Positions 38,265 through 53,174 of a DNA stretch of 64,000 nt are shown piece after piece (positions within the stretch are counted from its first letter, which is position 1; every line of letters starts with the position of its first letter). Where the stretch lies: assembly GCA_030532125.1 (NCBI GenBank), contig JAUNLU010000001.1, positions 487,960 through 551,959 of the forward strand. The letters are read 5' to 3'. The DNA is from Trueperella sp. Its GTDB lineage: Bacteria; Actinomycetota; Actinomycetes; Actinomycetales; Actinomycetaceae. The notes under the pieces are model-generated. The model did no database searches. It worked only from the letters and a program-made list of their open reading frames with translations, and was not told where the DNA came from. The position numbers were made by a program, and so were the translations under genes.

Positions 38265-38992
38265 TGATCCGACTCCGCATCGGCACCTTTAATATTCAAC
38301 ACAGCAAACCGCGCAGTGCGGGCATTACCGCTCGCTCTGCTGTGGCGACGCTGGGTGCAGAATTGGCTGCGTTGGACTTGGATTATCTCGCGATGCAGGA
38401 GGTAGACGCCGGGCGGGAACGCTCAGGAAATTTGGATCAGCCCCGGCTGATTGCGGATGCCTTGCAGATGAGTGGCAGATTTTGCCCGACGCTGCCGGGA
38501 TACGGCTTAGCAAGTTTTACCCGCCACCCGAGCGAATCTTGGTGCGGCTCGCCTTTGCCAAATCAGAAGCAGTGGCGGAATGTTGATATGTGGCTGCAAG
38601 CGCCAGAGCCGCGCGGCTGGATCGGCACCCGGCTATTTTTGGCCGACGCTGCTGAGTTATTACTTGCCAATACACACCTAGCTGTGGAACCGGAGCGGGC
38701 CCAGCTGCAGCTTGCCAGCTTGACTGCAGAGTTGGCACAAATGGCAGGCCCTAATCGACCAGTAATTTTGCTAGGTGATCTCAATCTGCTGCCAGCCGCA
38801 GTGGCAGAGGTTGCCCCGCAGTGGGTAGCACTGGCTACGGGAGATACCACTCCCATGCCCCATCCGAGACGGCAAATAGACCATATTCTGGGGTGGAATT
38901 TACCGGCAGATAGCACCGGAAATTTTGGGGCAAATGTACAAGAACTCTCGGTTTCCGACCATGCGGGATTAATTGCTGAGATCAGGCTTTAA
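38264..38992 (+). CDS. Endonuclease/exonuclease/phosphatase-family protein
   Basis: 242 residues. It has GTFNIQH at the N-terminus, MQEVDAG (metal-binding Glu), NTHLA, LLGDLNLLP (catalytic Asp and Asn) and SDHAGL with the final catalytic His. These are all the EEP-fold markers, so it is probably an active metal-dependent phosphodiesterase, but whether on DNA, sphingomyelin or another phosphoester is not evident. It has no signal peptide. Last gene of the mscS-msrB unit. Confidence 0.83.
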   Translation: MIRLRIGTFNIQHSKPRSAGITARSAVATLGAELAALDLDYLAMQEVDAGRERSGNLDQPRLIADALQMSGRFCPTLPGYGLASFTRHPSESWCGSPLPNQKQWRNVDMWLQAPEPRGWIGTRLFLADAAELLLANTHLAVEPERAQLQLASLTAELAQMAGPNRPVILLGDLNLLPAAVAEVAPQWVALATGDTTPMPHPRRQIDHILGWNLPADSTGNFGANVQELSVSDHAGLIAEIRL

Positions 38993-39047
38993 GTTATGGT
39001 GTGCCTGGTAACTACTAAGGCATATCAAAAGCAAAACATACAAAAAG

Positions 39048-39120
39048 TAGGCCCCGCGGGACTCGAACCCGCAACCTACGGATTAAAAGTCCGGAGCTCT
39101 ACCACTTGAGCTAGAGGCCC
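39048..39120 (-). tRNA. tRNA-Lys (TTT)
   Basis: Cloverleaf on the minus strand with acceptor stem GGGCCTC/GGGGCCT, anticodon loop CTTTTAA (TTT), and GGTTCGAGTC T-loop. CCA is not encoded. The flanks contain no other gene. Confidence 0.95.
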
Positions 39121-39274
39121 GCGCAGTTGCGCAGTTCCTTGCACAGCTCTCAATTGGAAAGATCTGCAAAGAACACTCCACGATTGTACTAGGCAAATTG
39201 CATAAGTTAAAACGCGTTAAATGTATCGTCTCTCACCACTTTGCGAGACAATTGATAAAAGCGAAGGAGATGTC

Positions 39275-39898
39275 ATGGCTATGAATCAACCGCGTCGTCC
39301 GGCACAATTGCGTCCGGAACAAATTGAACTCATCGAAGGTGAAGTAGATACAGCCGCAACTTCTGAACTGGCACACACCACTGCGCAAGCAGTAGTGCTG
39401 CCGCGAAATCCACAAACGGAGCTAGAACCGCAGGCAGCAGCGCGTATCCAAGAAATTATCGCCGCCGAAGGGATAGATAGTATCGCGGAAACTTGGGCTA
39501 ACTCGCCACATGACTCGCTGCCGGGGGTGTTGTGGCGCGGATATTTGCTCCGGGAATGGGTGCGCCGTTTTGGGACAGAGGTAGAACTGCGCTTTGCTGC
39601 CGCCCAGAAAGTTGCACAGCAGGACGCGCCGGAAAAGTTAACCCAGGTTAGTACTCCGGCTCAGGTGCGCGCCCAATGGGATACCGTATTGCGGGGCAAT
39701 TTTACTGGTGATTTTGCTGCAGTACTGCGGGAATCTGCTCGATTTACCGATTTCTTGGGGGCGGTGGAGCCGCTCTGGATTGAAGACGAAGAGCATCCGC
39801 TGGCCACCCAAGTTACTATCCGCGACACAGCCATGTTGCGTACCAGCGCAGAGTTCCGGGATGCCGGCGAGCTGCAGGTGCGCGGTCTGCTGCAGTAG
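39275..39898 (+). CDS. Conserved-looking protein of unknown function
   Basis: 207 residues; not recognised. It is soluble, acidic, Ala/Gln/Glu-rich and predicted largely helical. The central part, IAETWANSPHDSLPGVLWRG (about residues 72-91), looks like a fold core. No catalytic or DNA-binding motif is visible. The ATG at 39275 has GAAGGAGA upstream; an in-frame ATG at 39221 has none. It precedes the mycothiol-synthase-like gene by 19 bases and is probably co-transcribed, but that does not reveal its job. Confidence 0.65.
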   Translation: MAMNQPRRPAQLRPEQIELIEGEVDTAATSELAHTTAQAVVLPRNPQTELEPQAAARIQEIIAAEGIDSIAETWANSPHDSLPGVLWRGYLLREWVRRFGTEVELRFAAAQKVAQQDAPEKLTQVSTPAQVRAQWDTVLRGNFTGDFAAVLRESARFTDFLGAVEPLWIEDEEHPLATQVTIRDTAMLRTSAEFRDAGELQVRGLLQ

Positions 39899-39917
39899 CT
39901 CGGATAGGAGATAGCTC

Positions 39918-40913
39918 ATCCAACGGGTAGATTTTGCACGGGTATTACGCCCTACTGCGGTGCAGGCAGTGCGGCATTTTACGCAGCAAGTCACGGCGGC
40001 AGATGGCGTGAGTCCATTTGACGAACAGACTCTGCTAGATATTGCTAATCCCGATGCCGCAACTAGCTATGCACTGATTTTCCAGCCGCGTGCTGATGAC
40101 GGCGTTGCCGGGGAGGTGCCCACTTTGCTGGGATTTGCAGCTGCCGATTTGCGCAATAATTCACTGGAATTAGCAGTGCATCCGCGCGCCCGCCGGCAGG
40201 GGTACGGCACTGCACTCTTGGGACTGAGTAAGGAATTGCCGGGCGGCACAGTGTGGGCACATGGCAACTTGCCAGCTGCCCTAGCTTTTGCACAGCACAA
40301 TATGCTGCCGCCAGTGCGCGAACTCCTAGTGCTGGAGCGGAAAATTGTTGCTACTGCCCATCAGGCCGGTGCAGTTTATCCAGCACAAGCAATGCCGACC
40401 CAAGCTGGTTGGCAGCTGGACACTTTCCAACCGGACGATTTGCCGGAGTTGGTTGCGCTCAATTCCCGCGCGTTTGCGCAGCACCCAGAGCAAGGGCAGT
40501 TAGTGGCGACCGACTTTACCCAGCGTTTTGCCCAAGACTGGTTTGATCCCCAACTCCTCTACTTATTGCGCCCAGCGCAGAGCCAAACAAAACGGAGCGC
40601 AGCACAGCGGAGTGCAGAGCAGCAGAGGATAAAACCGCAGCGCGCAAAACTAGGGGGCTTCGTCTGGCTCAAGCCAGATCCACCGCAAGTAGAGCTCTAT
40701 GTGCTCGGCGTCGACCCAGCAGAGCAGGGGCAAGGCTTGGGTAGTTATCTCATCCAGGTGGCGCTGCATGCAGCTTGGCAAAATGGCTACCAGAAGATAG
40801 TGCTATACGTAGATGGGGCAAATCTCCCCGCTGTGCGCGCCTATACCCGGGCGCAATTCACAGTGCAGGCGCGGCATACCGCTTTTCGAGTGCCGCAGCT
40901 GGCAAAAATATAA
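39918..40913 (+). CDS. mshD: Mycothiol-synthase-like double GNAT acetyltransferase (probable ATC start)
   Basis: 331 residues from ATC at 39918. Two GNAT acetyl-CoA sites are present: HPRARRQGYGTALL near residue 87 and VDPAEQGQGLGSYL near residue 272, as in MshD, which acetylates Cys-GlcN-inositol to form mycothiol. In frame, there is no ATG, GTG or TTG between the stop at 39912 and the GTG at 39960. A good ribosome site (AGGAG, 39906-39910) is seven bases from the ATC, and the residues before 39960 (VDFARVLRP) look like the normal MshD N-terminus. Starting at 39960 would lose them and have no ribosome site. A repetitive Gln/Arg/Ser insert lies near residue 220. Confidence 0.72.
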   Translation: MQRVDFARVLRPTAVQAVRHFTQQVTAADGVSPFDEQTLLDIANPDAATSYALIFQPRADDGVAGEVPTLLGFAAADLRNNSLELAVHPRARRQGYGTALLGLSKELPGGTVWAHGNLPAALAFAQHNMLPPVRELLVLERKIVATAHQAGAVYPAQAMPTQAGWQLDTFQPDDLPELVALNSRAFAQHPEQGQLVATDFTQRFAQDWFDPQLLYLLRPAQSQTKRSAAQRSAEQQRIKPQRAKLGGFVWLKPDPPQVELYVLGVDPAEQGQGLGSYLIQVALHAAWQNGYQKIVLYVDGANLPAVRAYTRAQFTVQARHTAFRVPQLAKI

Positions 40914-40961
40914 GGTCAATCTGCCTATACATTGCACCAGAATTTTTGGTTTACTGCAGAT

Positions 40962-43214
40962 ATGGAACTTGAATTAGATTCCCCCGCCCACGAACCGGAG
41001 AAGATCGCACCGTGGATGCGAATGGGTAGTCCGTACACCGCGGCAGAATTAGCGGAGCTATTTGCGCAAGCGCAGCAAGACGCCACGCCCGACGCCGAAG
41101 TTAAACTGCCCAAGGGGCGGTTCCTAGATCGGGAGATTTCCTGGCTAGCGTTTAATGAACGGGTATTGGAGCAGGCTGAGGATCAGAATCTGCCGCTGTT
41201 GGAGCGTGCCTGGTTCCTGGCCATATTTGCCTCCAACTTAGACGAGTTCTATATGGTGCGCGTAGCTGGGCTGATGCGGCGTATGGCAGCTGGAATGGCA
41301 GTTACTAAGGCTTCGGGGCTGTCGCCACGGCGAGTGCTAGAGGCAATTCGAGCGCGCACTGCCGAACTGCAAACTCGCCACGCGCAGCTATTCCGGGACG
41401 ATGTGCAGCCCAAGTTGGCTGAAGTTGGCATCGTGATCCAGCACTGGGCGGAGCTAGGTGAACCGGAACGAGAGCGGCTGCTCAAGTTCTACCGGAAGCA
41501 AATTTTCCCGGTACTCACGCCGCTAGCAGTGGACCCGGCGCACCCCTTCCCCTATATTTCGGGGCTGTCGCTGAACCTGGCGGTTATTGTGCGGAACCGG
41601 CAGACCGGAAAAGAATCTTTTGCCCGGGTAAAGGTGCCGCCACTTTTGCCGCGCTTCATCGCCGTCGATTCCGAAGGGCGCCCCTACCGCCCGGAGGATG
41701 TGCCCTCAGACGAAGACGGCAACACCTACTACATCCCGCTGGAAGAAATCATCGGCGCGCACTTAGATACGCTATTCCCCGGAATGGACATCGTGGATTT
41801 TTCAACTTTCCGCGTCACTCGTAACGAGGATCTAGAGGTAGAAGAAGACGACGCGGAAAACTTGTTGAAAGCGATCGAAAAAGAGCTTACCCGGCGCCGA
41901 TTCGGTGCTGCAGTGCGGCTGGAAGTAGAAGAAGACATTTCCCCGCATGTGCTGGATCTGTTGGTGCGAGAGCTGGGCGTACGGGAGGAGGACGTACTGC
42001 GGCTCCCCGGTCCGCTAGATTTGACTGGGCTAAATGTGATCCACGATCTGGATCGCCCACAGTTCAAATATCCGAAGTATGTGCCGGTTACTGCCAAGGG
42101 TTTGGCGGAAGTGGAATCTTCCCAAGCAGTAGATGTTTTTGCGGCGATTAGGCGGCAAGAAATTCTATTGCACCACCCGTATGATTCTTTCTCCACCTCA
42201 GTGCAACAGTTCTTGCAGCAGGCGGCGCAAGACCCTAAAGTACTGGCAATTAAGCAGACCTTGTACCGCACTTCGGGAGATTCTCCCATCGTAGATGCGC
42301 TGATAGCAGCGGCAAATGCGGGAAAGCAGGTGCTCGCCGTCGTCGAAATTAAAGCTCGATTTGACGAGCAGAACAACATTGAATGGGCGCGCAAACTGGA
42401 GCGCGCAGGCGTACACGTGGTTTACGGCATCGTCGGGTTGAAGACGCACTGCAAGACGGCGTTGGTAGTGCGCCAGGAACGTGACGGGCTGCGCCGGTAC
42501 TGCCACGTCGGCACCGGGAACTACAACCCGAAGACGGCGCGCGGTTACGAAGATCTCGGGCTGCTGACTTGTGACCGTGATGTCGGGCAGGACTTAACTC
42601 GGCTATTTAACCAGCTCTCCGGCTATGCTCCCAAAGCTAAGTTCCACCGGCTCTTAGTGGCACCCAAAGGCGTGCGCCTCGGCCTGCTGGAACGCATTGA
42701 ACGCGAGATCGCCAACCATCAGGCGGGGAAAGAAGCGTGGATTAAGTTCAAAGCCAATGCAGTAGTGGATGAACAGATCATCGACGCGCTATACCGGGCT
42801 TCCCAGGTTGGAATCCCAATCGATATCCAGGTGCGCGGTATCTGCTGTTTGCGCGCCGGCATTCCAGGGCTGTCCGAAAATATTCGGGTGCGGTCGGTGC
42901 TGGGGCGGTTCTTGGAGCACTCGCGGATTTACGCATTTGCTAATGACGGCGATCCAGAAGTTTGGATCGGTTCCGCTGACCTAATGCATCGCAATTTGGA
43001 TCGGCGCATCGAGTCATTAATCAAGATCGAAGACCCAGAAATGGTCAACTACTTAGTGGGATTGGTGCAAACCGCCTGCGCAGATACCACCCAGTCGTGG
43101 CATATGCGGCCAGAAGGTTGGCAACGGGTGCAGTACGACGCCGAAGGGCGCGAGCTGGACCATATCCAAGATTTATTGATGGCTGCGGCGCGCTCCCGAG
43201 TAGCGGGGGAATAG
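40962..43214 (+). CDS. ppk: Polyphosphate kinase 1
   Basis: 750 residues. It has the four PPK1 domains: the N-terminal [15 protein letters not shown], the head domain, and two phospholipase-D-like catalytic domains. The phosphorylated His515 lies in [10 protein letters not shown], and a second conserved His in [19 protein letters not shown]. It makes polyphosphate from ATP. A TATACAT -10-like box is at 40926; the ATG at 40962 has no clear ribosome site. A longer N-terminus from 40932 would need a TTG. It adjoins the mutT1-like gene, as in many actinobacteria, and precedes pstSCAB. Confidence 0.96.
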
Positions 43215-43235: not shown

Positions 43236-44222
43236 ATGCGGAAAATATCCTATGTTCAGGGTGCGGGGGCAATAGTCTGGCGCGTTAAGAAGGAAAAACT
43301 TGAGGTGCTTATTGTGCACCGGCCCAAGTGGGATGACTGGTCATTCCCGAAAGGAAAGCTGAAGTCAGGGGAGACCCTGCGCGCTGCCTGTATCCGGGAG
43401 CTAAAAGAGGAAGCTCGGGTAGATATCGCGTTAGGGGTGCCCCTGGGTTGGCAGCGCTACCGGTTAAGAAGTGGAGCGCATAAGCGGGTCTACTACTGGA
43501 CTGCTACCGAACTACCGGCGAAGCACCCGGCGCTGCGTTCGCGGTGCCGCGTGGCGGCGGCATCAGCGGCCGAAGTGGATCAGGTGCGGTGGGTGTCAGT
43601 GAAAAAAGCCAAGAAAATGCTGACCACCGAGTCCGATCGGGAAATGCTCGCCCAAGTGAAGAAGATGTTTGACGCCGCAGAGCTGGCAACAGTGCCGCTC
43701 TTGCTGGCTCGGCACACTCGAGCACAGAAGCGTTCTGCCTGGGCAAAGCATGATGGACAGGAACAGACCCGGCCGCTGACCGAAACTGGCAGCCGCCATG
43801 CGGAGGCAATTTCGGAAGTTTTCACCCAGTACGGGGTGGAGTCGGTACTGTCCTCGCCATGGCAGCGCTGCGTAGATTCTGTGCGGCCGTACGCCAAGAA
43901 AAGCAGACTGGAGATTAAGTTCCTGCCAGAGATTACCGAGAAAGCTCATAAAGAACAGCCCGCACAGGTGAAGAAAGTATTTTCTCGGTTAGTGCGCACT
44001 GGTGACGTGCCCACAGTGGTGTGTGTGCACCGGCCCACGTTGCCAACTATCTTCACGGCGCTGGGCAAGTTCTCCACTCCGCGGCTGCGCCGGCAACTTC
44101 CGGCGGCAGATCCGTGGCTAAAAACTGGTGAAATTCTGGTGGCGCATGTGGCGCACAGTTCGGGAGCAGAACCAGAAATCGTTGCTTATGAGCGGGTAAG
44201 GCTGCCCCAAACTGGTAAATAA
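43236..44222 (+). CDS. NUDIX hydrolase fused to histidine phosphatase (MutT1-like)
   Basis: 328 residues. The NUDIX box spans residues 40-62 (GKLKSGETL...RELKEEARV); the usual Gly near its end is Arg61. From about residue 155 a histidine-phosphatase domain begins with LLARHTRA and includes SSPWQRCVDS and a later HRPTL. This is the layout of mycobacterial MutT1, which cleaves 8-oxo-dGTP and dinucleoside polyphosphates. It starts 21 bases after ppk and is probably co-transcribed with it. Confidence 0.9.
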   Translation: MRKISYVQGAGAIVWRVKKEKLEVLIVHRPKWDDWSFPKGKLKSGETLRAACIRELKEEARVDIALGVPLGWQRYRLRSGAHKRVYYWTATELPAKHPALRSRCRVAAASAAEVDQVRWVSVKKAKKMLTTESDREMLAQVKKMFDAAELATVPLLLARHTRAQKRSAWAKHDGQEQTRPLTETGSRHAEAISEVFTQYGVESVLSSPWQRCVDSVRPYAKKSRLEIKFLPEITEKAHKEQPAQVKKVFSRLVRTGDVPTVVCVHRPTLPTIFTALGKFSTPRLRRQLPAADPWLKTGEILVAHVAHSSGAEPEIVAYERVRLPQTGK

Positions 44223-52427: not shown

Positions 52428-53174
52428 GTGAGAGCTGAACAAAAAACTTTCAAGCCCTGGATAGCGCCAGCCAGCGTCCGTGCCCAAATCGGATTCTGTG
52501 GCGCTGCTTTACTGGCGTTGGGTGGAGCTACTCACGTCGCCGGCACCGCAGTAGTGCTGCTGTTCTTAACTGTGGGTATGCTTCCCGGTTGGCCCAAACT
52601 TTTGCGGCTCCCAAATTTATCCACCTCTAGGTGGGTAATGTCTCTCACCGCCGTATTTGCGGCCTTTGCTGCTGGGTTGGGAACTGTGGGTCACACCGCA
52701 ATGGTGCTCACTGGAGCGGTAATTGCCAGTTTCGTTACTGAGATTTTCCGCACCGATGGCCGGTACAAACTGGTAGAACAAATTTCGGGTGATTTTGCCG
52801 GGGCAATAATGGTCATCTGTGCCAGCATGTGGATTCACCTGGTAAAACTAGAAGACGGCTCGAATGTGATGGTAGTGGCAGCTATTGCGTTAGCAGTGGG
52901 TGCAGTTATCAGCGCCTTTGATTCGCCGCGTGCCCACCTGCTCACCTTTATAAACACCACCGCGTTCGCGGTAGCAGTCGCATTTGTAATGGGAACTCCC
53001 GTAATGGTGGGGGTAATCATTGGACTATTCGTCGGGCTGGGATTCTACTTAACCCGCCGGGCGGTGCGGTTTCTCCCGCGCCACGACAGCCCAGAAATTA
53101 GCGCTGCCCGAGCGCTAATTCCGCATTGCGCTCTGGGGTTGATTAGCTACCTGGTGTGTGTTGTTCTCGTTTAA
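52428..53174 (+). CDS. Integral membrane protein of unknown function
   Basis: 248 residues; not recognised. About eight hydrophobic segments are spaced through the protein, with a conserved-looking polar loop after the fourth (TEIFRTDGRYKLVEQISGD). The N-terminus is basic and polar. No transporter or enzyme signature is apparent. The start is GTG without a ribosome site. It precedes the nitrobindin-like gene by nine bases. Confidence 0.7.
   Translation: MRAEQKTFKPWIAPASVRAQIGFCGAALLALGGATHVAGTAVVLLFLTVGMLPGWPKLLRLPNLSTSRWVMSLTAVFAAFAAGLGTVGHTAMVLTGAVIASFVTEIFRTDGRYKLVEQISGDFAGAIMVICASMWIHLVKLEDGSNVMVVAAIALAVGAVISAFDSPRAHLLTFINTTAFAVAVAFVMGTPVMVGVIIGLFVGLGFYLTRRAVRFLPRHDSPEISAARALIPHCALGLISYLVCVVLV

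Follow-up and report, generated by a model that had tools for sequence, protein, structure and literature searches.

The start codon of infC is ATT in E. coli but ATC in Streptomyces, and noncanonical start codons of this kind are described as being repressed by IF3 (PMC5472188). In Streptomyces, sigR is likewise described as starting with GTC under IF3 repression, and the SigR regulon includes mycothiol biosynthesis genes (PMC5472188). A survey of codon-anticodon pairs reported that weak pairs at the third position are disfavoured by IF3 (PMC10158994).

Here, the start of mshD, the gene for mycothiol synthase (mycothiol being an antioxidant), was analysed in a window of 64,000 nt from Trueperella sp. 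(genome G000). The gene very probably starts at an AUC codon (39918-39920, plus strand) and would then yield a full-length MshD-family acetyltransferase. ATC is taken as the start because it stands at the homologous start position of three congeners and of M. tuberculosis MshD, is preceded by a Shine-Dalgarno sequence and has no canonical competitor with one. As in infC, an AUN codon follows a Shine-Dalgarno sequence, and AUC is the infC start codon of Streptomyces, but infC differs in encoding its own repressing factor and in being autoregulated (PMC5472188). As in Streptomyces sigR, the noncanonical start is found in an actinobacterial thiol-redox gene, but the sigR codon is GTC, is conserved across Streptomyces and was established by Edman data together with stop mutations and IF3 alleles (PMC5472188), whereas the mshD start is proposed from sequence comparison. 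For the protein, the comparison is with MshD of M. tuberculosis (Rv0819; PDB 1ozp, 1p0h and 2c27), which belongs to the same family and shares the N-terminal register.

The mshD gene (39918-40913, plus strand) comprises 331 codons plus the stop. Read from ATC, its product of 331 residues contains two GNAT stretches and scored 189.3 bits against the NCBIfam model TIGR03448, above the cut-off of 163.1. The frame is bounded on the 5' side by an in-frame TAG (39912-39914), which is followed by CTC (39915-39917) and ATC (39918-39920), then by CAA CGG GTA GAT TTT GCA CGG GTA TTA CGC CCT ACT GCG, and then by GTG (39960-39962), the first canonical start codon. The preliminary description had stated that ATG, GTG and TTG are missing from the frame between the stop at 39912 and this GTG, and none was found there. 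A stretch of 14 codons free of canonical starts is unremarkable alone, and it is also too short for codon-position G+C to be decisive. The case for ATC is carried by its falling exactly where the relatives start, and not by this gap alone.

The Shine-Dalgarno motif AGGAG (39906-39910, plus strand), which the preliminary description had considered well placed for ATC, indeed ends 7 nt upstream of it (spacer 39911-39917). The duplex energy with the anti-Shine-Dalgarno sequence was -7.3 kcal/mol; of 4000 codons drawn at random within genes, 2.4% matched this value. Among the 56 heuristically called genes of the window, the motif was at least as strong as that of the best start in 36. Two neighbouring codons were rejected as starts. 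CTC at 39915 has a Shine-Dalgarno spacer of only 4 nt and lies 29 residues before the conserved DG motif, compared with 28 in the congeners, while GTA at 39927 is 16 nt from AGGAG and, to our knowledge, GTA has no known use as a start codon.

To locate the homologous start, the distance to the DG motif was compared between relatives. ATC 39918 lies 28 residues before DG, and the mshD genes of the three congeners with a match also start exactly 28 residues before it, with ATG in G001 and in T. bonasi (G003) and with GTG in G002. Close relatives thus carry a usual start at the very codon where the window has ATC. In the structure 2c27 of M. tuberculosis MshD, residue 5 aligns to residue 5 of the window protein, and the alignment is gap-free through the N-terminus. 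The N-terminus read from ATC is (M)QRVDFARVLRP..., of which the residues VDFARVLRP, singled out before as resembling MshD, begin at 39927. This resemblance is borne out for the register, which agrees with M. tuberculosis MshD and with the congeners. Only 1-2 identities with each congener were found in the first 14 residues, so that the agreement at the N-terminus concerns register and frame rather than sequence similarity.

A family survey, aligned on the DG motif, covered 33 MshD loci (the window, G001, G002 and 30 family loci including G003), which are a subset of the family, since a match over the family cut-off was obtained in 49 of the 213 genomes searched. In 32 of the 33 loci a canonical start was located 19-45 residues before DG, and the exception was the window, where the only canonical starts near the motif are GTG codons 14 and 11 residues before it.

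As a control, start positions were compared for the window genes that have orthologues within the 80 kb around the locus in G003 and G001. A canonical start in the window was within 3 codons of the relative's start with the best Shine-Dalgarno sequence in 35 of 40 pairs for G003 and in 32 of 38 pairs for G001; these counts include some short or doubtful ORFs, none of which was dropped after counting. Among the misses (5 for G003, 6 for G001), mshD alone has an ATN codon, and hence a near-cognate one, where the relative starts; this codon lies in the open frame, and both relatives agree on it. In the other misses, either the canonical start of the window lies upstream of the relative's, or the start assigned to the relative lies upstream of the window's stop. 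The remaining miss, the gene at 52466 compared with G001, has a window GTG 5 codons downstream and TGG in place of the relative's start.

The genome of the window probably makes use of near-cognate initiation already, since its infC carries ATT at the homologous start position. The same position carries ATC in G001 and G003 and ATT in G002. In these three congeners a stop codon lies four codons before the ATC, ATC and ATT, respectively, and no canonical start fits, while in G000 GTG codons are present further upstream in the frame. In this genus infC appears to start with ATT or ATC, and annotation would probably put its start in the wrong place, since the stop just upstream leaves the three congeners without a canonical start. 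The noncanonical codon thus recurs across the infC loci compared, whereas the congeners have ordinary starts in mshD. In the sigR and mshC homologues of G000, no start outside ATG, GTG and TTG was found: sigR starts with ATG, and mshC with TTG after GGAGAG.

The alternative of translation from GTG 39960, giving an MshD without its first 14 residues, is unlikely. GTG is common as a start, being the codon with the best Shine-Dalgarno sequence in 17 of the 56 heuristically called window genes, and the protein shortened in this way still scored 187.5 bits against TIGR03448. The Shine-Dalgarno energy at this GTG, however, was only -3.3 kcal/mol, an ordinary value that 37% of the 4000 random in-gene codons equalled, and the resulting N-terminus, with 14 residues before DG, would be shorter than in any other of the 33 MshD loci. 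An AlphaFold model of the window MshD, built with only 2 sequences (mean pLDDT 65.8), predicted a first helix at residues 11-29, which a start at GTG 39960 would cut. A product starting at residue 15 may still fold, though with the first helix clipped, and residues 1-10 had pLDDT below 50; the model is too weak at these residues, and the structure was dropped as an argument against the GTG start.

Still less probable is that mshD is losing its function in this lineage, a mutated start codon leaving it with scant product or none. With 1.47 Mb the genome is small, neither a strong mycothione reductase nor an MshA over the cut-off was found in it, and a search with the window protein yielded an mshD match in only 3 of the 8 congeners (G001, G002 and G003) and none in the other 5. 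Against this, the frame of 331 codons is open, its motifs are intact, a strong Shine-Dalgarno sequence is kept before ATC, and mshC is retained in G000. The divergence of mshD is also in line with that of its neighbours. Identity between G000 and the three congeners was 40-46% for mshD, compared with 67-71% among the congeners themselves; the corresponding values were 51-52% and 77-79% for mutT, 76-79% and 89-90% for ppk, and 59-65% and 74-77% for the upstream gene. The gene is intact and syntenic, and its divergence is not exceptional relative to its neighbours.

The block in question, all on the plus strand, consists of a 207-codon protein gene (39275-39898, stop TAG 39896-39898), mshD, ppk for polyphosphate kinase 1 (40962-43214; 1192 bits against NF003922) and a MutT1-like NUDIX/histidine phosphatase gene (43236-44222), the last assigned by profile matches and, like ppk, by synteny. 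This order is kept in G001, G002 and G003, and in each of them the 207-codon gene stands immediately 5' of mshD; its protein matched neither Pfam nor NCBIfam. From its stop to the mshD start there are 19 nt in the window and 28 nt in G001, and the two genes adjoin in G003 and G002.

An error in the assembly that turned an ordinary start into ATC is the least probable explanation. ATC and ATG are one substitution apart and ATC is known from one assembly of the species, but that assembly is good (4 contigs, 99.87% complete, 0 contamination) and isolated substitution errors are uncommon in assemblies of such quality.

An Rfam search of 38900-41200 detected only a tRNA gene (39048-39120, minus strand, 65.9 bits), which is located between an endonuclease/exonuclease-family gene and the mshD block. 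Three folds of the mRNA at the mshD start gave z-scores of -0.81, -0.89 and -0.46, none of them unusual. An exact scan for the mshD start region in viral contigs returned nothing, as expected for chromosomal DNA.

With regard to the pathway, MshC in G000 scored 457 bits (cut-off 485.1) and a cysS-like paralogue 249 bits, while the best scores for MshA and MshB were 125.9 bits (cut-off 462.5) and 171.1 bits (cut-off 224.35), respectively. MshA over the cut-off was found in none of the nine genomes of the genus, G000-G008 (best scores 118-126 bits against 462.5). MshC and MshD are both kept in G000, G001 and G003. Mycothione-reductase-like matches of 579-603 bits (cut-off 635.65) were observed in six congeners (G002, G003 and G005-G008). 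Of these, G005-G008 have the match yet lack mshD and an mshC-grade match; in G000 and G001, where mshC and mshD are present, no mycothione-reductase match exceeded 211 bits.

For the AUC start of mshD, the following course of initiation is proposed. AGGAG, 7 nt upstream, would position the 30S subunit at AUC 39918, and ribosomes terminating on the upstream gene, 19 nt before the AUC, possibly help through translational coupling. The initiator tRNA would pair with AU and mispair at the third position, and because of this mispairing, initiation with Met would be inefficient and disfavoured by IF3. By analogy, the AUC start should keep MshD scarce, and control of mshD by IF3 is plausible from infC and Streptomyces sigR as described in PMC5472188.

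The preliminary description had likened the AUC to infC, with low expression or dependence on initiation-factor fidelity. The start position is well supported by comparison, while the codon itself does not behave as expected of a regulatory one: AUC is not conserved at the mshD start in the genus, the three congeners with mshD having ATG, ATG and GTG. A conserved regulatory codon is therefore disfavoured, which is no argument against the use of AUC itself. Most likely, the AUC arose by loss of the canonical start in this lineage and was tolerated because little enzyme is needed; since the congeners keep ordinary starts, such a tolerated weak start is likelier than a conserved regulatory device. 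It is doubtful, though conceivable, that through the AUC the final step in making mycothiol depends on IF3, with synthesis rising when IF3 activity falls, in convergence with the IF3-repressed GTC of Streptomyces sigR.

In CC-licensed PubMed Central articles, neither an earlier report of a near-cognate start for mshD nor a paper joining mycothiol and Trueperella was found. Near-cognate starts are an uncommon but already known kind, to which mshD would be an added case. Annotation restricted to ATG, GTG and TTG would place the mshD start 14 residues too late, an error that comparison with the starts of congeners exposes. If the AUC start is confirmed, an actinobacterial redox gene would join the few genes other than infC on the short list of those with a near-cognate start, and a connection of IF3 with thiol metabolism would become testable.
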